This document shows positions 7,967 through 19,761 of a stretch of 64,000 nucleotides of DNA, in pieces (positions within the stretch are counted from its first letter, which is position 1; each line of letters starts with the position of its first letter). The position numbers and the translations under genes were made by a program. Source of the stretch: Clostridia bacterium (GTDB lineage Bacteria; Bacillota; Clostridia; Christensenellales; CAG-138); NCBI GenBank assembly GCA_017429985.1, contig JAFRNW010000018.1, positions 186,001 to 250,000 of the forward strand, given 5' to 3'. Under the pieces are notes generated by a model, which had not been told where the DNA came from, made no database searches, and worked only from the letters and a program-made list of their open reading frames with translations.

Positions 7967-8569
7967 TCAGTATCCGAGGTCTTCGTTAATCAGCACAACC
8001 TCATATTCGCAGCCTCCCGGCTTCTTCCAGAGAACGGACAGCCCGCGGCAGATCCTGTCCGGGCTGTCGCAGTCATAGCACCTGTCCCCTTTGACGGCGC
8101 AAGGTGTTTTCCTGTTCAATCTTTTAGCATTTAGCGGACCGGCAACGTTCCGCGCCCTGTACAGCGCCGTTTCAAAGTCCTTTTCGACCTTGTTGCATCC
8201 CGCGATCAGATAGACTTTTTTGTGCCCGTACTGAACGGCGGACACACGGTTTCCGGTCCCGTCGATATTGATCAACTCCCCGCTCACGGAGATCCCGTTC
8301 ACGGAAGAAAGATAGATCTCCGCGGTCTGCGCCTCCCGTGAGATCTCCTCGCGCGTTTTCCCCGGCGTGTCCGCGTTGGAGAACACGCTGTTATGGGAGG
8401 CCAGCATTTTATAAAGTCCCATCTGCTGAATCGTGACCGAACCGCCCATCCCGACCGTCATGCCGTCGATCGCGCTGTTTAGATACGCTGCCGCCGAACA
8501 GGCGTCCTCGAAGACGGATACCTGAAATCCGTTTCTTTCCAGATTCTTCTTCAATTCCGTAAAATCCAT
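7967..8569 (-). CDS. LUD-domain (lactate utilisation-like) protein
   Basis: A 200-residue protein with the LUD-domain pattern: an N-terminal helix pair, GMGGSVTIQQMGLY near residue 42, NADTPG near 70, and a strand ending in LIAGCNKV near 127. The C-terminal part has cysteines in CAVKGDRCYDC that could bind metal. Standalone LUD proteins are related to LutC/LutB of lactate oxidation, but most short clostridial ones have no proven reaction. The ATG at 8569 has GGAGG eight bases upstream; the open frame to 8710 runs through a terminator hairpin and is not coding. It is separated from the upstream amidohydrolase gene by that terminator. Confidence 0.85.
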   Translation of the reverse strand: MDFTELKKNLERNGFQVSVFEDACSAAAYLNSAIDGMTVGMGGSVTIQQMGLYKMLASHNSVFSNADTPGKTREEISREAQTAEIYLSSVNGISVSGELINIDGTGNRVSAVQYGHKKVYLIAGCNKVEKDFETALYRARNVAGPLNAKRLNRKTPCAVKGDRCYDCDSPDRICRGLSVLWKKPGGCEYEVVLINEDLGY

Positions 8570-8665
8570 CCCTGTTCCCTCCGTTCCGAAATGCGGGAAG
8601 CAGACCGCTCTTCCCTTTTTCCTGTCTGTCCGGTCCGTTCCGACATCTGCATCATAGCATAAAAG

Positions 8666-8702
8666 CAAACGGACCGGAAAGAGCCCCTTTCCGGTCCGGA
8701 TA
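8666..8702 (-). terminator. Terminator after the M20 amidohydrolase gene
   Basis: A perfect 12-bp stem (8670-8681 with 8687-8698) with a five-base loop is followed on the minus strand by TTTGCTTTTA. It ends the ABC transporter-amidohydrolase operon. Confidence 0.85.
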
Positions 8703-8716
8703 CCCGTCATAAGCTG

Positions 8717-10162
8717 CTATCCGACAACGCACGCCTTCACCCCGTCCGGGATCGGGCAGACATACGGTTCCCCGGATGTCCGTTTCAAAAATTCCTCCTT
8801 TGCTTCCGCGAGAAGGGCGGGATCCGAAAGAAGATCCACCGCGGTCCCGAACAGCACCTTGGCCGCGTAGAGCATCCCCTTGTCCCCGACAGACGAACCG
8901 CCGCAGGATACGTTCTGCCAGGAATGACCCGGACACCCCTTCGGAAACGTCACCGCGGTAAACTGCCCTGTCGGAGTCAGATGGCTGACATCCCCCACGT
9001 CGGTAGAGCCGGGTTCGAAATCGTTGCCGGTATAAAACGGCAGCAGGAAGTCGTTCAGTCCTTCGGCGCTATTCCGCAGGAGCTCCGAGACCTTGTCGGC
9101 TATCTCCTGGCTGGAATTCGCCCCCCTGCCGGGTAGTTCCTCCCGTGCGGGATATGTCGCCGCCAGCTTTGCCGCAAATTCCTTTTCCTTCTCCGTATAG
9201 ACCGGGAGCGGAACTTCCTGCATGTTCCGGTAGATCGCCTTTTCGAGAGCCGTATTCGGGATCGTATCCGCCGTCCCGTCCACAAAGACCCGCTCAAATG
9301 ACGTTTCCGTCATGAGCGCGGCGCCTTCCGCCTGAAGGTCGACCCGTTTCATCAGCTTCAGCGTATCGGGAACCGTTCTGGAACGGATCATATACAGGAC
9401 GGACGCGTGCGGCTGGACCACATTGGGCGATACGCCGCCGCCGTCAATGATCGCGTAATGGACGGACGCGTCCTTCTTCATATGTTCCCGCAGGTACTGA
9501 ACGCCGGTATTCATCAGCTCCACCGCATCCAGTGCGGACCGCCCGTCCTCCGGGTTGCCCGCCGCATGCGCCGCCGTTCCCTTGAACTTATACAGTATCT
9601 GCACGCAGGAATTATTCGTGCCCGTCGTCACTTCGTTTTCCGAACCGGGATGCCAGCTGATCGCCGCGTCCAGTTTTTCCCAGATTCTCTCTCTGGCCAT
9701 GAACGCTTTCGACGCGCCTCCTTCTTCCCCCGGGCACCCGTAATAGATCACGGTCCCGCCCAGTCCGGTTTTCTGCAGGTATGCCTTCACCGCGCACGCG
9801 GCGGCAAGCGAACCGACGCCGAGCATGTTGTGTCCGCATCCGTGACCGGACCCGTTCGGAACGAGTTCCTCCCGCTCCGTCGCGCCCGCCTTCTGGGAAA
9901 GCCCGGACAGCGCGTCAAATTCGCCCAGGATCCCGATCACCGGACCCGGCCCGCCGTAATACGTTCCGGTAAATGCCGTTTCGATCCCGCAGATTCCCGA
10001 AGCGACTTCAAATCCCTGTTCAATCAGCACGTTCTTCAGTGCTGCGGCGGATTTATGTTCCTGCAGTGAAAGCTCCGCAAATTCCCAGATCTCATGCGAC
10101 AGTTCTGAAAACAGCTCCGCTTTTTCGTCTATCAGCGCGTATCCGATTTCCTTGCCGCTCAT
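8717..10162 (-). CDS. M20-family amidohydrolase (AbgB-like)
   Basis: A 481-residue metal-dependent amidohydrolase. Metal-site motifs are visible: GHGCGHNMLG near residue 108, GCPGEEGG near 141, and the C-terminal STDVGDVSH near 395. A dimerisation insert lies between them. The length matches AbgB-like enzymes, which cleave p-aminobenzoyl-glutamate or similar N-acyl amino acids. The ATG at 10162 has GGAGAGGGAG upstream; an in-frame TTG six codons earlier overlaps that site. It follows the ABC-transporter ATPase gene by about 14 bases, so the transporter probably imports its substrate or product, an N-acylated amino acid or small peptide (inferred). Confidence 0.92.
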   Translation of the reverse strand: MSGKEIGYALIDEKAELFSELSHEIWEFAELSLQEHKSAAALKNVLIEQGFEVASGICGIETAFTGTYYGGPGPVIGILGEFDALSGLSQKAGATEREELVPNGSGHGCGHNMLGVGSLAAACAVKAYLQKTGLGGTVIYYGCPGEEGGASKAFMARERIWEKLDAAISWHPGSENEVTTGTNNSCVQILYKFKGTAAHAAGNPEDGRSALDAVELMNTGVQYLREHMKKDASVHYAIIDGGGVSPNVVQPHASVLYMIRSRTVPDTLKLMKRVDLQAEGAALMTETSFERVFVDGTADTIPNTALEKAIYRNMQEVPLPVYTEKEKEFAAKLAATYPAREELPGRGANSSQEIADKVSELLRNSAEGLNDFLLPFYTGNDFEPGSTDVGDVSHLTPTGQFTAVTFPKGCPGHSWQNVSCGGSSVGDKGMLYAAKVLFGTAVDLLSDPALLAEAKEEFLKRTSGEPYVCPIPDGVKACVVG

Positions 10163-10176
10163 GTTCTCCCTCTCCG

Positions 10177-10914
10177 TCAATACAGGACCTTGCTCAGGAA
10201 TTCCTTCGTTCTCGGATTCTGCGGATGTCCGAAAAGTTCTTCCGGGGAACCGCTCTCCGCTATGTTTCCGTCGTCCATAAACAGGACTCTGTCCGAAACC
10301 TCTTTGGCAAATCCCATCTCATGCGTGACGATGACCGACGTCATGCCGGTCTTTACCAGCTGCTTGATGACGTTCAGCACTTCCCCGACCATTTCCGGAT
10401 CCAGCGCCGACGTCGGTTCGTCGAACAGCATGACGTCCGGCTCCATCGCGAGCGCCCGGACGATGGCGACACGCTGCTTCTGTCCGCCGGACAGTCTGCC
10501 CGGATGTTCGTCCTTCTTGTCCAGCAAACCTACTTTCGCAAGAAGCTCCTCCGCCTTTTCGTCCGCTTCCTTCTGCGTGTACTTTTTGGTCATGACCGGC
10601 GCGAGCGTAATGTTTTCCTTCACGGTCATGTGGGGAAACACGTTGAAATGCTGGAACACCATTCCCATTTTCTGCCTGTGGATGTTGATGTCCACCGTTT
10701 TGGACGTGATGTCAACGCCCTCGAAGATGATCTGTCCGGAATCCGGGGTCTCAAGGAGATTCAGGCAGCGTAGGAATGTGCTTTTCCCTCCGCCCGACGG
10801 TCCGATGATGGAAACGACGCTGCCTTTTTCGACGTGTTCCGAAACGCCCTTCAAAACCTGGAGCTCCGTTCCGTTCACGTCAAAGCTTTTATAAAGATCA
10901 ACGGTCTTAATCAC
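10177..10914 (-). CDS. Polar amino-acid ABC transporter ATP-binding protein
   Basis: A 245-residue ATPase of the GlnQ/ArtP type. It has Walker [10 protein letters not shown] near residue 38, the Q-loop [11 protein letters not shown] near 85, signature LSGGQKQRV near 140, Walker [15 protein letters not shown] near 160 and the H-loop VTHEMGFA near 197. It drives uptake of an amino acid with the permease just upstream, whose reading frame overlaps it by eight bases. It starts with GTG, with AGGAGG about eleven bases before it. Confidence 0.97.
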
Positions 10915-11578
10915 CTGCTTTCAGCCTCCTTTCCACTTTTCCGAACACCTTGCTGAGGACGAACGTCATCACAAAATAGATGACGGCGACGATGAACATG
11001 CACTCAAACGTCAGATAGGTGTTCCCCTTCACGATGATGCATGCCGTCATGACCTCTCCGATAAAGAACGTGGACGCCAGCGACGTATCCTTGATGATCA
11101 TGATGAACTCATTGCCGAGAGCGGGAAGGATGTTCTTGATCGCCTGAGGCAGAATGACCTTCATAAAGGTCTGCGAGCTGGTAAGACCGAGGCTTCTCGC
11201 GGCCTCCGTCTGTCCGCGGTCGACCGCCTGGATGCCGGAACGGAACACCTCCGATACGTAGGCCGCGCTGTTCAGAACGAGCGCGATGCTGACGCTGAGA
11301 AACGTCGGGATCTCCGAAGCGAACAGCTTGGGGACCAGAAACACTGCGACATACATCTGCAGAAGCATCGGGGTTCCGCGGATCACCTCGACGATCGCAA
11401 TGGAGATCCACCTGAACGGCGCGATCTTGGACGATCTTGCAAGCGCCAGGAAGATGCCGATGATCGCTCCGAAGAATACCGTAATGACAGACAGCAAAAG
11501 CGTATACGACACACCGGTGACGAGAAACGTCTTCCAGTACTTGCTCATGATCTTGATTACATTCGAGAAAAACTCCAT
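10907..11578 (-). CDS. Amino-acid ABC transporter permease
   Basis: A 223-residue inner-membrane permease of the His/Glu/Gln/Arg family. Hydrophobic segments lie near residues 20-45, 55-75, 85-105 and 180-210. The cytoplasmic coupling loop with [22 protein letters not shown] sits near 130-150. It probably works as a homodimer because only one permease gene is present. It overlaps the ATPase gene and follows the binding-protein gene by about 100 bases. GGAGGG lies before its ATG. Confidence 0.97.
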
Positions 11579-11600
11579 AATCCCTCCGGATAACCGACGA

Positions 11601-11627
11601 CTGCCGCAGAATTCCCATCTGCGGCAG
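11601..11627 (-). other. Intercistronic hairpin between binding-protein and permease genes
   Basis: A perfect 10-bp inverted repeat (11601-11610 with 11618-11627) and a seven-base loop, without a T-run. Such hairpins often stabilise the upstream binding-protein message or partly attenuate readthrough, giving more binding protein than permease. Confidence 0.55.
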
Positions 11628-11678
11628 ACGAGGTCTTATTATCATCAATCAAAGATAAGTATGAATGTCCGAATTGGT

Positions 11679-12527
11679 TCAGTCTGCCGCTACGTTTCCT
11701 TCGTCATCGTAGCCGACTTCGCTCGCAGTCGAGATGCCCGCCAGTACTTTCGCGTCCTCATACCATTTTCCGTAGTAACCGGCGTCGAACGCCTTGGCAA
11801 GAACTTCGTTGACAGCCTTTGTCAGATCGTCGTTGCCCTTCTTGATCAGGATCACGTTGTTTTCCGCCTCGGCGGAAACCTCAAAGTTGAATCCCGTCAT
11901 AGCGACCTGATCGTTCGCGGCAATAATGGCTTCCCCGTTGCCCTGCGCGACGGCAAGCGCGTTGATCAAGCCGTTCCTCAGCGCTTCCACCGCTGTTCCG
12001 ATATCGGTATAGATTTCGATCGAACAGTCAGCGGGAAGCTGCGATGTGCAGAGATCGTACTGAAGGGAAGCGACCTGCGCTCCGACTTTCAGTCCGGAGA
12101 AGTCCTCCGCCTTAGTCCATTTGCCGGCATTCTCGGCAAGGCAGATGATCGTCTGCTCCGTCTCGTTATCCCCGGCATAGTAGTAATCGGAAAGGTTGAA
12201 GTTCTCCGCCCTGGTCGGGGTATAGGAGAAACCGGAGATGGACATGTCCACCGTTCCGCTCTGAACCGCCGCCTGGCATGCGTCGAAGCTCATCGGCTTG
12301 ATCACAAGCTCAAGTCCCATCTCAGAAGCGATGAAATTCGCCAGCGTAACATCGAAGCCGACGTACTGATCCTGGCCGGTCTTGGACGTGTCGACAAATT
12401 CCATCGGAGCGAAGTCGGGAGACATCGCGACCGTCAGCGTCTTTGCCGCCTTCTTCGCGCATCCGGTCATCGCGAACATACCGAGAATCATCAGAGCTGT
12501 AAGCGTCCAGGCAATAATCTTTTTCAT
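11679..12527 (-). CDS. Amino-acid ABC transporter substrate-binding lipoprotein
   Basis: A 282-residue lipoprotein. It has a basic start, a hydrophobic stretch and the lipobox MTGC with the lipidated Cys22. The mature part has the SBP_bac_3 fold: MSPDFAPMEF near residue 37, GFDVTLANFIA near 62 and the hinge DMSISGFSYTPTRA near 98. It captures a polar amino acid outside the cell for the permease and ATPase encoded downstream. First gene of the operon, preceded by a consensus sigma-A promoter and AGAGGG. The ligand cannot be read from the sequence. Confidence 0.96.
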   Translation of the reverse strand: MKKIIAWTLTALMILGMFAMTGCAKKAAKTLTVAMSPDFAPMEFVDTSKTGQDQYVGFDVTLANFIASEMGLELVIKPMSFDACQAAVQSGTVDMSISGFSYTPTRAENFNLSDYYYAGDNETEQTIICLAENAGKWTKAEDFSGLKVGAQVASLQYDLCTSQLPADCSIEIYTDIGTAVEALRNGLINALAVAQGNGEAIIAANDQVAMTGFNFEVSAEAENNVILIKKGNDDLTKAVNEVLAKAFDAGYYGKWYEDAKVLAGISTASEVGYDDEGNVAAD

Positions 12528-12585
12528 ATCCGTATCCCTCTTTCTTTATTCTGCAAAAAGAACTATTTATCTTTTCAATACGGTG

Positions 12586-12614
12586 ATTATAAATGCATAA
12601 ATATTCCGTGTCAA
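12586..12614 (-). promoter_or_regulatory. Consensus sigma-A promoter of the ABC transporter operon
   Basis: On the minus strand an exact TTGACA (12609-12614) and an exact TATAAT (12586-12591) are separated by 17 bases, about 60 bases before the binding-protein start codon. Confidence 0.88.
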
Positions 12615-12682
12615 GCATTATTATTGATATTTTTATACGTTTTTTAGTGATTATTATGAATATTATATGAAATTTTGTGCAT

Positions 12683-12712
12683 AAAAGAAAAAACGGGCGC
12701 CAAATGCCCGCT
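12683..12712 (-). terminator. Terminator after the cysteine desulfurase gene
   Basis: CGGGC (12694-12698) pairs with GCCCG (12706-12710) and is followed on the minus strand by six T residues and a further T-rich stretch. Confidence 0.75.
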
Positions 12713-12754
12713 TTCTTTCCGGTTTAGATTATCAGAGTTGCTTCAAACAGAACT

Positions 12755-13879
12755 TCACGCCAGATTTCGGATCGCTTCCAGAGCGGTCTCCATTTCTTCC
12801 TCCGTGGTATATTCGGAAAAGCTGAATCTCACCGTTCCCTCCGGAAACGTTCCGACGGTTTTGTGCGCGTCAGGAGCGCAGTGCAGTCCGCAACGCACCA
12901 GGATCCCGTACTCTTCCTCCAGCCGGAAGGCGACATCCGCGTTGTCCCTGCGGAGAAAGTCCACGGAGATCACGCCCACACGCTTTTCCTCATCATCCGG
13001 TCCTGGAACACGGATTCCCGGTATATCCTTGAGCCCGTCCAGGAAATAGCGGGTCTGCCTCTTTTCAGCCTGTCTTCTGTCCTGAAGGGAACCGTGACGC
13101 AGCGCGGCATGGAGCCCGTAGATCCCGGGCAGGTTCAGCGTGCCGGGTTCAAACCGGTCAGGCAGGAAAGGCGGCATGTCATAGCTGTGAGAAACCGATC
13201 CGGTACCGCCCGCCATGAAGGGAGGCAGCAGCTCGGCAACTTGCTCGGACATCATGAGGACGCCCAGCCCCTGAGGACCCCTTAAGCCCTTGTGGGCGGG
13301 CATGCAAAGGATATCAGTGCCAAGGTCTTCCATGGTGAACGCGAAATGACCGGCGGTCTGCGCTGCGTCGACGGCGACCGGGATGCCGTACGGTTTCAGC
13401 CTTTCCGATATTTCCGCGACCGGCTGTATGGAACCGCAGATGTTGGACGCGTGCGTAAGAACGCAAAGCTTCGCTTTCTCATATCCGTCGGGCAGTTTTT
13501 CCGCGATTGAGATGCCTTCCCCGTCGGCAGGAATTCGAAGAATTTCCGCTCCGATCATGACCAGGGGACGGATGACGGCGTTGTGTTCCATGGAGGTAAC
13601 GAGAACTTTGTCGCCTTTTTTTACAAGTCCCTGTATCACCATGTTCAGCGCGACTGTGTTGCCGGGAGTGAAAATCACGCGTTTCGGATCGGAGCACCCG
13701 AACATCGCAGCGAGTTTCTCCCTCGTTTCCAGTATCGTCATGCCCGCTTCCGTCGCGCGCTCATACGAACCCCTCCCGGCGTTCGCGCATACTTTGTCCA
13801 GATAGTACTTTACCGCGTCCGACACGCCCTCCGCTTTCGGGAAAGACGTGCAGGCATTGTCCATGTAGATGTCTGTCAT
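12755..13879 (-). CDS. Cysteine desulfurase-family aminotransferase (EF2568 type)
   Basis: A 374-residue class V PLP enzyme. The motif PAHKGLRGPQG contains the likely PLP lysine, Lys197. HASNICG near 143 and DAAQTAGH near 171 bind the cofactor. The C-terminal RCGLHCAPDAH segment contains candidate catalytic cysteines. It resembles the desulfurase subfamily linked to selenium-dependent molybdenum hydroxylase gene sets and would release S or Se from cysteine or selenocysteine. It is divergent from the yedE-tusA-DUF3343 operon, and the two promoters overlap. Confidence 0.9.
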   Translation of the reverse strand: MTDIYMDNACTSFPKAEGVSDAVKYYLDKVCANAGRGSYERATEAGMTILETREKLAAMFGCSDPKRVIFTPGNTVALNMVIQGLVKKGDKVLVTSMEHNAVIRPLVMIGAEILRIPADGEGISIAEKLPDGYEKAKLCVLTHASNICGSIQPVAEISERLKPYGIPVAVDAAQTAGHFAFTMEDLGTDILCMPAHKGLRGPQGLGVLMMSEQVAELLPPFMAGGTGSVSHSYDMPPFLPDRFEPGTLNLPGIYGLHAALRHGSLQDRRQAEKRQTRYFLDGLKDIPGIRVPGPDDEEKRVGVISVDFLRRDNADVAFRLEEEYGILVRCGLHCAPDAHKTVGTFPEGTVRFSFSEYTTEEEMETALEAIRNLA

Positions 13880-13883
13880 GAAT

Positions 13884-13907
13884 CGTTATTCTCCCTTGCA
13901 AATAACG
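13884..13907. promoter_or_regulatory. Inverted repeat 1 in the divergent promoter (candidate operator)
   Basis: CGTTATT (13884-13890) and AATAACG (13901-13907) form a perfect 7-bp dyad with a 10-base centre. It covers the -35 box (13896-13901) of the plus-strand yedE promoter. A near copy lies 52 bases away (13936-13958). Confidence 0.65.
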
Positions 13908-13924
13908 GCTTATTATGTTATTAT
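13896..13924 (+). promoter_or_regulatory. Promoter of the yedE operon
   Basis: TTGCAA (13896-13901) and TATTAT (13919-13924) with a 17-base spacer. Its -10 box overlaps that of the opposite-strand desulfurase promoter. Confidence 0.55.
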
Positions 13925-13948
13925 ACCATTCGAAGCGTTATCTCTCAA
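13920..13948 (-). promoter_or_regulatory. Promoter of the cysteine desulfurase gene
   Basis: On the minus strand TTGAGA (13943-13948) and TATAAT (13920-13925) with a 17-base spacer, about 40 bases before the desulfurase start. Inverted repeat 2 covers its -35 box. Confidence 0.65.
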
Positions 13949-13958
13949 GCGAATAACG
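13936..13958. promoter_or_regulatory. Inverted repeat 2 in the divergent promoter (candidate operator)
   Basis: CGTTAT (13936-13941) and ATAACG (13953-13958) form a second dyad of nearly the same sequence as 13884-13907. The same CTC and GC bases appear in the centre, which is one base shorter. Confidence 0.65.
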
Positions 13959-13990
13959 CCGGATCAAGATGCTTCAATTTGGAGGTAAAT

Positions 13991-15067
13991 ATGGAAAAGA
14001 AAAAGAACAGTTTCCTGAAGGATTACGGGATGGTCATCCTGACCGGTCTGGTGATCGGCGCAGCAGCGGTTCTGCTGACCAAACTCGGAAATCCGAAGAA
14101 CATGGGCTTCTGCATCGCTTGCTTCCTGCGCGATATCAGCGGCGCCATGGGATTCCACGGTGCGGCGGTCGTTCAGTACTACCGTCCTGAAATCGTCGGT
14201 CTCGTGGTCGGTTCCATGGTCATGGCTCTCGTCACGAAAGAATGGAAAGCACAGGGCGGTTCGTCCCCGTTCACCCGTTTCGTGCTCGGCGCACTGGTCA
14301 TGATCGGCGCGCTGGTATTCCTCGGCTGCCCGCTCCGTATGGTGATCCGTATCGGCGGCGGCGACCTGAACGCGGTCGTCGGCCTTCTCGGATTCATTGT
14401 CGGTATCGTAATCGGCACGATCCCGCTCAGAAAGGGCTTCACTCTGAACCGTGCGTATAAGCAGAGCAAACTGGAAGGGCTCGCTTTCCCGATTGCTCTC
14501 GTGGTCTTCTTCATTGTATCCGTCGCGACCGTCCTGCTGAAATCCAGCACGGAAGGCCCCGGCAGCATGCGCGCTCCCATTCTCGTCTCCCTGATCGTCG
14601 CTCTGATCGTCGGCGCTCTCTGCCAGCGTTCCCGTCTCTGCATGGCCGGCGGAATCCGTGATGCGGTCATGTTCAAAGACTTCAAACTGATCACCGGCTT
14701 TGTCGCGATCATCGTAGCCGTGCTCGTCGGCAATCTGATCGTAAACGGCGGCGTGAAATTCTCCTTTGCGGATCAGCCCATTGCGCACTCCGACGGTCTG
14801 TTCAACTTCCTCGGCATGGCTATGGTCGGCTGGGGTTCCGTCCTCCTCGGCGGATGCCCGCTTCGCCAGCTCATCCTCGCCGGTGAAGGCAATTCTGACT
14901 CTGCCGTAACGCTGCTCGGATTCATCTGCGGCGCGGCGATCTCCCACAACTTCGGACTCGCCTCCTCCGCTGCCGGAATCGGCGCAGGCCCGGTCGCCAT
15001 CGTTATGGTTGTCGGATTCATCATTCTGGCAATCGTCTCCGTCTGCAACATGAAGAAAGGAGCATGA
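13991..15067 (+). CDS. yedE: YeeE/YedE-family transporter (sulfur or selenium compound)
   Basis: A 358-residue integral membrane protein with about nine to ten hydrophobic segments and the duplicated YeeE/YedE pattern. GFCIACFLRD lies near residue 38, and FLGCPLRM near 114 is repeated as LGGCPLRQ near 290; RLCMAGGIRDA lies near 216. Conserved cysteines in such proteins conduct thiosulfate in YeeE; a selenium-linked role has been proposed for YedE in Clostridia. The start at 13991 has GGAGG at five bases; the open frame further upstream is non-coding promoter DNA. Next come tusA-like and DUF3343 genes with overlapping ends. Confidence 0.93.
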   Translation: MEKKKNSFLKDYGMVILTGLVIGAAAVLLTKLGNPKNMGFCIACFLRDISGAMGFHGAAVVQYYRPEIVGLVVGSMVMALVTKEWKAQGGSSPFTRFVLGALVMIGALVFLGCPLRMVIRIGGGDLNAVVGLLGFIVGIVIGTIPLRKGFTLNRAYKQSKLEGLAFPIALVVFFIVSVATVLLKSSTEGPGSMRAPILVSLIVALIVGALCQRSRLCMAGGIRDAVMFKDFKLITGFVAIIVAVLVGNLIVNGGVKFSFADQPIAHSDGLFNFLGMAMVGWGSVLLGGCPLRQLILAGEGNSDSAVTLLGFICGAAISHNFGLASSAAGIGAGPVAIVMVVGFIILAIVSVCNMKKGA

Positions 15068-15069
15068 AC

Positions 15070-15276
15070 ATGATCGACGCAAGAGGATTAAGCTGCCCGA
15101 TGCCCGTTCTGATGGTACAGAAGGAAGTTAAATCGAAGTCGCCTGACAAGCTCGAGGTCTGCGTGGACACGCAGACTGCCGTACAGAACATCACCCGTTT
15201 CGCCAAGGCAAACGGCTATTCCATAACCGTGAAGGAAAACGAGGACGAAGAGTATCTCCTCACTCTTTCAAAATGA
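15070..15276 (+). CDS. TusA/SirA/YedF-like sulfur carrier protein
   Basis: A 68-residue protein with the TusA signature DARGLSCPMPVL. Cys9 is the expected persulfide (or selenide) carrier. These proteins take sulfur from a desulfurase and hand it on, so the divergent desulfurase is a natural donor. The ATG at 15070 is preferred because AAAGGAG is seven bases away; the ATG at 15064 lies almost on the ribosome binding site. Translation is probably coupled to yedE. Confidence 0.92.
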   Translation: MIDARGLSCPMPVLMVQKEVKSKSPDKLEVCVDTQTAVQNITRFAKANGYSITVKENEDEEYLLTLSK

Positions 15277-15509
15277 AGTACGTCGCGACATTCTATACAC
15301 ATGTTTCCGCCATGATGAGCCAGCGCAGTCTTGCTGCAAAAGGCATCCGTGCAAAGCTGGCGCCCACGCCAAGGGAGCTTTCTTCAAGCTGCGGGACGTG
15401 CGTACGGTATGAAGCGGACGACCCGTCCTACTCTCTGCTTGACAGCGATGTGGAACAGGTCGCTTCACTGGACGATTCTGGGTACCGGATACTCAGGCAA
15501 TTCAGCTGA
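15273..15509 (+). CDS. DUF3343 protein (putative Se/S binding)
   Basis: A 78-residue protein matching the DUF3343 pattern: an N-terminal strand, an amphipathic helix, then SSSCGTC with Cys40 and Cys43 and a short C-terminal part. Its start overlaps the TusA stop by four bases, so translation is coupled. DUF3343 genes commonly sit beside yedE/yedF and selenium genes; a role in passing reactive S or Se is plausible, but the reaction is unknown. Confidence 0.87.
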   Translation: MKYVATFYTHVSAMMSQRSLAAKGIRAKLAPTPRELSSSCGTCVRYEADDPSYSLLDSDVEQVASLDDSGYRILRQFS

Positions 15510-15523
15510 TTCATACAGCAGAC

Positions 15524-15552
15524 AAAAGACAGGGCTCGGCCCTGTCTTTTTT
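15524..15552 (+). terminator. Terminator of the yedE operon
   Basis: A 12-bp perfect stem (15524-15535 with 15539-15550), a three-base loop and a terminal T-run. It lies 15 bases after the DUF3343 stop. Confidence 0.93.
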
Positions 15553-15585
15553 CTTGTTCGATATCATTCACTCGGCGGATTCCGC

Positions 15586-16089
15586 TTATCTGTTCTTCCC
15601 GCAGCAGTTTTTATACTTCTTTCCGCTTCCGCACGGGCAGGGATCGTTCCTGCCGACCGTCTTCTCCTTTACGAACGTGTTCTCACTGTGGAACGCCTTC
15701 GTGATCGCGTGGCGTTTTTCTGCTGTCAAAATCCCGTCCCATTCCTTCAGGGAATAGAGCCAGGGGGCTTTTGCGCGAAGCATGTTCAGATAGAGCTTCT
15801 CAAAGTCCACAACCGCTTCGACCGGCTTATCCGCTTCCAGTTCTTCCAGCTTCAGTTCCTCTTTAAGGCTCGTGTTGATTCCGTCTAGAAAACCTACCGC
15901 CTCGCAGACATCCATATCAAAACCGTCCGCGAGCTCCTTCAGTGTACAGCTGATCTTATTGTTGCCGCTGCCGAGAATTTTCTCATATGCTGCGGTTTCC
16001 TTGTCAAAATACCCGTTCCAGAACTTCTTATACTCAGCGTCCGAACGTTCCATTTCACACAGCTGTTTCCAGTCATCGTATAAACTCAT
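15586..16089 (-). CDS. SEC-C motif protein
   Basis: A 167-residue protein. Its C-terminus carries the SEC-C zinc motif [13 protein letters not shown] (also found at the SecA tail), near residues 150-162. The first 145 residues are mostly helical and acidic with no motif I recognise. The zinc motif often mediates binding to SecB, ribosomes or other partners, but the job of the standalone protein is unknown. GGAGG lies before the ATG at 16089. Confidence 0.88.
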
Positions 16090-19371: not shown

Positions 19372-19419
19372 GTGTCGTTTTTCTCCTGCGGGCGTCCGCC
19401 CGTTTGTTATTCAAAAAAT

Positions 19420-19761
19420 GCGAGCAAGCCGTAAGCCGAGTTCTGTCAAAGGACGACCATCTATCTCTGGCCCAACGTTGCCGATGGGCTCATGCGATTA
19501 TCGGGAGCGTAGCGGGCAGCTATTAAATGCTCTCATTCCAATCTTGCACCGGGTGGGGTTTACATAACGGTCAAGTTGCCAAGCCGCTGGTGAGCTCTTA
19601 CCTCGCCTTTCCATCCTTACCTGCCAAACGGCAGGCGGTATCTCTCTGTTGCACTTTCCTTGGAGTCGCCTCCACCGGGTGTTACCCGGCACCCTGCCCT
19701 GCGGTGCTCGGACTTTCCTCCCCGCACATGGTGGTGAGGGGCAGCCGTCTGTCTTACTCGC
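19420..19761 (-). ncRNA. rnpB: RNase P RNA
   Basis: About 340 bases read on the minus strand. The 5' GCGAGTAAG (19753-19761) pairs with the 3' CTTGCTCGC (19420-19428), forming P1. The conserved GAGGAAAGTCCGAGC block lies near the 5' end, and ACAGAACTCGGCTTA forms the universal 3' conserved segment. The overall layout matches a class A bacterial RNase P RNA, which removes 5' leaders from pre-tRNAs. A T-run follows the 3' end. Confidence 0.95.

Follow-up and report, generated by a model that had tools for sequence, protein, structure and literature searches.

In the bacterium studied here and its relatives, selenium genes are probably repressed by a standalone ModE-type protein acting through Mo-box operators, and these operators would be the switch of the selenium-dependent molybdenum hydroxylase (SDMH) system. 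The case begins in a 111-bp intergenic gap that separates a desulfurase gene from the divergently transcribed yedE and contains one inverted repeat twice, within the 64-kb stretch of DNA that was analyzed (the window); by sequence, these dyads are ModE-type Mo-boxes. It is built on the identity of the operator, its conservation, the genes it precedes, gene co-occurrence, and promoter geometry.

The yedE–desulfurase intergenic region

The two dyads (Table 1) differ in that the gap of dyad 2 is one base shorter, and they are the only exact occurrences of CGTTAT-N10..12-ATAACG in the window; a scan of the window allowing up to three mismatches gave eight matches against 2.65 expected, and the site under study is the sole exact one. 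The original prediction had placed a CGTTATT-N10-AATAACG dyad over the yedE −35 box and a near copy about 52 bases away over the desulfurase −35 box, with overlapping −10 boxes, and this description holds: dyad 1 also reads exactly in the longer form across its full extent, the dyad centers are 51.5 bp apart, and the −10 boxes have 5 bp in common. A promoter scan found these two promoters in 600 bp, against 0.6 expected.

With the predicted transcription start set 7 bp past the −10 box for position arithmetic, the center of dyad 1 falls at −35.5 of yedE and that of dyad 2 at −34 of the desulfurase gene, and by the same arithmetic the center of dyad 2 lies ~16 bp into the yedE transcript and that of dyad 1 ~17 bp into the desulfurase transcript. 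Each dyad thus touches both genes, being centered at the −35 box of one promoter and inside the leader of the other. Because the dyads cover the −35 boxes and the first transcribed bases, and the −10 boxes overlap, a protein bound at either dyad could interfere with both promoters. The loop of dyad 1 holds a Shine-Dalgarno-like AGGGAG of the desulfurase gene, and the operator thereby overlaps the translation start region too.

Table 1. Features of the window and its genome, and dyads at loci of relatives. Unprefixed positions are those of the window.
Feature	Position	Strand	Description
Dyad 1	13884..13907		CGTTAT-N12-ATAACG, ModE-type Mo-box by sequence; over the yedE −35 box, inside the desulfurase leader
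Dyad 2	13936..13958		CGTTAT-N11-ATAACG; over the desulfurase −35 box, inside the yedE leader
yedE promoter	13896..13924	+	TTGCAA (13896-13901)-17-TATTAT (13919-13924); TG before −10; inferred start ~13931
Desulfurase promoter	13920..13948	−	TTGAGA (13948-13943)-17-TATAAT (13925-13920); TG before −10; inferred start ~13913
Desulfurase gene	12755..13879	−	Class-V aminotransferase of the cysteine desulfurase / selenocysteine lyase kind
yedE	13991..15067	+	Putative selenium transporter; TIGR04112 468.9 bits (cut-off 200)
TusA-domain protein	15064..15276	+	N-terminal half of YedF only
DUF3343 / Se_S_carrier protein	15273..15509	+	Last gene of the yedE row
Standalone ModE-type winged-helix protein	G000:C44:70998-71246		~115 aa; adjoins dapF
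L025			Perfect dyad before selenium-dependent xanthine dehydrogenase (Se-XDH; TIGR03311 1235 bits)
L026			Perfect dyad before modABC (modA TIGR01256 140 bits); selD-yedE on the same contig
G035			Perfect dyad before modE-like gene
G020			Perfect dyad at yqeC/fec
L024			1-mismatch dyad before the row fec-yqeC-yqeB-xdhC-selD-desulfurase-yedE-DUF3343
L031			1-mismatch dyad before selD
L022			1-mismatch dyad before Se-XDH
L014, L156, L171			1-mismatch dyads before yqeC
G014, G016, G034			1-mismatch dyads before modE-like gene
L020			1-mismatch dyad before standalone modE-like gene
L024, L141			1-mismatch dyads before Fec-type transporters

On the right of the gap, yedE, the TusA-domain gene, and the DUF3343 gene form an operon-like row; the TusA-like protein scores 58.5 bits to YedF (cut-off 110) and is missing the second YedF domain. 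On the left, the desulfurase protein scores 372.7 bits to TIGR01977 (cut-off 377) and 333 bits to SclA (cut-off 525). None of the eight proteins scanned from 7967 to 16089 is a regulator, in agreement with the earlier remark that no regulator gene is adjacent. Farther along, the window carries an RNase P RNA gene at 19417-19760 on the minus strand (RF00010, 260 bits).

Operator sequence and known Mo-boxes

The Escherichia coli K-12 modA promoter contains CGTTATATTGTCGCCTACATAACG ~20 bp upstream of modA, a CGTTAT-N12-ATAACG match with identical arms and spacing, which we take to be the ModE footprint. The E. coli ModE consensus, given as ATCGNTATATA-N6-TATATANCGAT or a close form in the available parts of PMC545781 and PMC2700814, shares arms and spacing with the dyad motif. 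The inner bases differ, with YC...GR in our 45 sites (a set that includes the L004, G010 (fec), G019, and G040 sites) and ATA...TAT in the E. coli consensus. The resemblance to the E. coli ModE/modA operator extends to the HTH wing, to the overlap of site and promoter, and to a modABC target, a molybdate transporter being under the operator in relative L026; ModE represses modABC according to the accessible text of PMC11980592. Besides the inner bases, the differences are that one window dyad (dyad 2) has an 11-bp gap, that the candidate regulator lacks molybdate-binding domains, and that the targets are mainly selenium genes.

A lone ModE DNA-binding domain with the sensor domain absent is also described for the Desulfovibrio HTH-only ModE in the part of PMC545781 at hand, where the predicted sites are CGGTCACG-N14-CGTGACCG before molybdate transport genes; here, in contrast, an E. 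coli-type box lies before selenium genes.

Dyads in related genomes

A search for the dyad before yedE loci of relatives, proposed alongside the original prediction, was productive: among 31 loci chosen by YedE homology alone (set A, 487 kb), the pattern CGTTAT-Nx-ATAACG has 14 matches when x=12, and no other x between 0 and 30 yields more than one. With 120 permuted half-sites, the set A count at x=12 averages 0.18 and the next best is 1; the permutation control for 1-mismatch sites took in 25 of 119 permutations. Set B comprises 80 loci retrieved for the YedE, YqeB, or ModE-HTH families, with L113-L120, whose YedE matches are weak, and L178 and L179, whose YqeB matches are weak, left out; it gives 11 occurrences at x=12, two at x=11, and 0 or 1 at other spacings. 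The two sets overlap in species, and L008/G035, L010/G014, L030/G026, and L014/G005 are identical site contexts; merging such contexts leaves 45 sites that deviate from the motif by one mismatch at most, and 22 of these are perfect.

Every one of the 22 distinct perfect sites, drawn from loci retrieved for YedE, YqeB, or ModE-HTH, has a selenium or molybdenum gene downstream. For 18 the target is yedE/desulfurase; Se-XDH, modABC, a modE-like gene, and yqeC/fec account for one site each. The 1-mismatch sites include similarly placed ones (Table 1), and a few, such as those in L175 and at position 3509 of L022, have no selenium or molybdenum neighbor. A dyad-directed search was the source of the G010 (fec), G019, and G040 sites, which are excluded as unbiased evidence. 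Genome-wide there is no excess of the motif, with 42 strand hits against 44 for a mirror control in 61 genomes; it is thus the location of the sites, not their number, that is non-random, and genome-wide counts say nothing about function.

An alignment of 11 yedE–desulfurase intergenic regions including that of the window, corresponding to ~8 independent cases due to shared species, bears out the expected conservation for one dyad of the two: all 11 rows retain dyad 1, with nearly all of its columns invariant, and the −10 region is mostly invariant, whereas dyad 2 is partly kept and is lost in L008/G035 and G005. The spacing is 51-52 bp wherever a yedE/desulfurase pair has both dyads, and most other promoters are served by single sites. 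A requirement for a pair of dyads five helical turns apart, as first envisaged, is therefore not supported, given the losses of dyad 2, the single sites elsewhere, and a pair in G020 separated by 64 bp. The latter is a second two-dyad divergent region (L079:9461-9548), with a Fec-type ABC row (with xdhC) on one side and yqeC-yqeB on the other. Fec/Btu-type ABC transporter genes (FecCD, Peripla_BP_2) are also found under a dyad in L081, L082, L083, L024, and L141, and their products possibly import molybdate or tungstate, as MolABC does.

Selenium and molybdenum genes in the window's genome

Perfect CGTTAT-N10..12-ATAACG dyads occur at five places in the window's genome: the two in the window, one before selD, and two (L001 and L003) inside ORFs of 493 and 525 aa, which we take to be chance occurrences and reject as operators. 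A search restricted to N12 lists dyad 1 as the one perfect site. The dyad before selD (TIGR00476, 383 bits) lies 17 bp upstream of the start codon and overlaps a TTGACA-17-TATTCT promoter, such that three of three perfect promoter sites precede selenium-supply genes (yedE, desulfurase, and selD). A 2-mismatch pattern gives 69 matches per strand versus 37 for the control. We looked for a dyad upstream of this genome's own standalone modE-like gene and at its yqeC-yqeB pair, and found none at either. Divergent from selD across the third dyad is a gene for an aldo/keto reductase with a 4Fe-4S domain (L006:8434-9627).

The SDMH-system genes selD, yqeB (TIGR03309, 353.6 bits), and yqeC (TIGR03172, 188.5 bits) are present in the window's genome, and selenium-dependent hydroxylase genes are seen in relatives' loci. 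The best SelB score in this 98.1% complete genome is 105.6 bits, under the cut-off of 242, and we therefore reject a Sec-decoding context. Together, SelB below cut-off and the presence of yqeB and yqeC fit the arrangement described in the accessible part of PMC2276186, in which an orphan SelD supports selenium-dependent molybdenum hydroxylases. The available sections of PMC2276186 and PMC11448449 on this orphan-SelD/SDMH system describe the same genes (selD, yqeB, yqeC, desulfurase, and Se-XDH) and contain no mention of ModE-type control; a sigma-54 promoter is reported there for Clostridioides difficile yqeB (PMC2276186 / PMC11448449).

Candidate regulators

The window's genome encodes two ModE-type HTH proteins, one standalone and one fused to an NTP-transferase, and the standalone winged-helix protein without a molybdate-binding domain is the best regulator candidate. 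HTH_1 is the sole domain found in it, with no TOBE (molybdate-binding) domains, and for this reason we call it ModE-type and not ModE; it scores 53 bits to TIGR00637, under the cut-off of 98.5. Its PDB matches are ModE structures (2ijl, 1b9m, and 1o7l), it has the wing TGGKGGGGAxLT in common with E. coli ModE, and YSKAW (HTH) and GG..GGGA.LT (wing) are invariant across 13 aligned standalone proteins. Among 61 genomes, ModE-HTH and YqeB are both present in 26 and both absent from 31, with one alone in 2 and 2 (p=1e-12). With standalone and fusion classes assigned by reading ORFs and the sets compiled manually, the standalone form is present in 10 of 10 genomes with a yedE dyad and also in 6 of 10 YedE genomes without one, an association that alone is not significant (p=0.087); in G026, G029, and G033 the ORF extends upstream, and the HTH part is judged standalone. 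The standalone gene is itself preceded by a perfect dyad in G035 and by a 1-mismatch dyad in G014, G016, G034, and L020. The gene is near yqeC or yqeB in G006, G014, G016, and G029, and in G050 it has selD on one side and modAB-like genes on the other, both identified from a reading of their sequence.

The fusion protein (G000:C31), with a ModE-type domain scoring 58 bits to TIGR00637, is a possible BirA-like enzyme-regulator, which could report molybdenum cofactor synthesis to the dyads. We think it unlikely to be the regulator: in G011 and G032, with fusion forms only, the loci examined contain no dyad, the sole form in the dyad-bearing genomes G001, G006, G014, G023, and G035 is the standalone one, and the fusion wing GGVSGGCSRLT departs from that of ModE. 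Its gene (L087:8765-9649) codes for a MobA-like NTP-transferase with a C-terminal ModE-type HTH and is followed by molybdopterin-binding (moeA-like) and MoaA-like genes. Binding by LysR_Se, a selenium-linked LysR regulator, is very improbable. The accessible portion of PMC5322559 proposes LysR_Se / HrsM for transcriptional control of selenium genes, LysR genes adjoin yedE in several relatives, and G023 has a perfect dyad between a LysR gene and yedE; however, LysR_Se belongs to a different regulator family and we reject it because its gene was not found in the window's genome, where the best score is 100 bits versus 437-499 in the six top-scoring genomes. Furthermore, G001, G009, G014, G026, and G035 have a yedE dyad yet only background LysR scores, and in the manually compiled sets a LysR of at least 200 bits is present in 10 of 10 YedE genomes without the dyad and 4 of 10 with it (p=0.011), the opposite of what this explanation predicts. 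Where yedE is beside a LysR_Se gene (L096, L097, L107, and L108, in G020, G025, G012, and G033, respectively), it mostly lacks the dyad, as though one control scheme took the place of the other.

A TaoR-like Mo/W regulator (PBP_like, PF12727) would have a parallel in TaoR, a regulator of tungstoenzymes in the part of PMC11980592 available, but is hardly credible here and is rejected, with PF12727 absent from the window's genome and from G001, G006, G019, G026, and G034, all of them dyad-bearing. The dyads could instead act as leader RNA hairpins, since each is in the leader of one gene, the desulfurase AGGGAG is in the dyad 1 loop, and dyad 1 alone folds better than shuffles (z −7.5). This, too, we consider highly unlikely: stem energies are low (−2.5 and −3.4 kcal/mol), shuffled sequences fold nearly as well as a relative's dyad or the E. 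coli modA site, and several sites lie upstream of the start predicted for the gene they target. There is no Rfam family match at the site, and with weak stems and RNase P as the window's sole Rfam match, we reject a hairpin or riboswitch.

Site positions and proposed mechanism

Relative to the best-scoring predicted start, the centers of 39 sites (including those of G010 (fec), G019, and G040) fall near −35, at −14.5 to −3.5, or at +6.5 to +38.5; these starts are predictions, weak for G020 yqeC, G040 yqeC, L020 yedE, and L025 Se-XDH, and in L008/G035 the best-scoring promoter call differs from the conserved one. Centers near −35 are those of divergent pairs, and centers at −14.5 to −3.5 are those of single yedE, selD, fecB, modE, and yqeC sites, in which a half-site often forms the −10 box. 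Activators usually sit well upstream of the promoter, and none of the 39 sites is centered well upstream of its best-scoring predicted promoter; this spread over the core promoter fits repression better than activation. That nearly all sites overlap the core promoter or the start region points to repression.

We infer that the standalone ModE-type protein binds the dyads, presumably as a dimer. In the window's genome it would repress the desulfurase gene and the yedE-tusA-DUF3343 operon here and selD at a separate locus. The operator would have further targets in relatives, namely yqeC/yqeB, Se-XDH, modABC, and Fec-type ABC transporters, and it is these targets that mark the operator as the likely switch of the SDMH system. 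The original prediction of one regulator for both transcripts is thus strengthened by recurrence of the operator before selD and the selenium and molybdenum genes of relatives, with the candidate gene located elsewhere; its sulfur/selenium theme gives way to selenium and molybdenum, the operator matching the ModE Mo-box and the candidate being ModE-type. Because the standalone protein has no molybdate-binding domain, it would sense its signal through a partner, and this signal may be molybdate, molybdenum cofactor, or selenium status. We raise only tentatively, as a possibility short of a probable one, that the sensor-stripped protein is a selenium regulator, which may respond to the status of selenium or of a selenated cofactor and link the supply of selenium with that of molybdenum in one circuit, in an organism that seemingly uses selenium only for molybdenum hydroxylases; a response of this kind is considered because all perfect promoter sites in the window's genome precede selenium-supply genes.

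Discussion

Regulation of bacterial selenium supply is described as largely open in the available text of PMC5322559, and a reviewer's question in the accessible part of PMC2276186 is whether selD and hydroxylase genes are co-regulated anywhere. Such co-regulation has direct support, at the sequence level, from a common operator before selD, yedE, yqeC, Se-XDH, and modABC. We found no report of Mo-boxes before selenium genes in the literature searched, which lay mostly outside subscription journals. A Mo-box regulon turned to selenium supply and run by a sensor-less ModE-type candidate would be a variant of known ModE control. The analysis names a small protein and a 24-bp site, connects two trace elements through a single switch in gut anaerobes, and suggests that a small ModE-like protein may control selenium and molybdenum together in an uncultured gut-type bacterium and its relatives.
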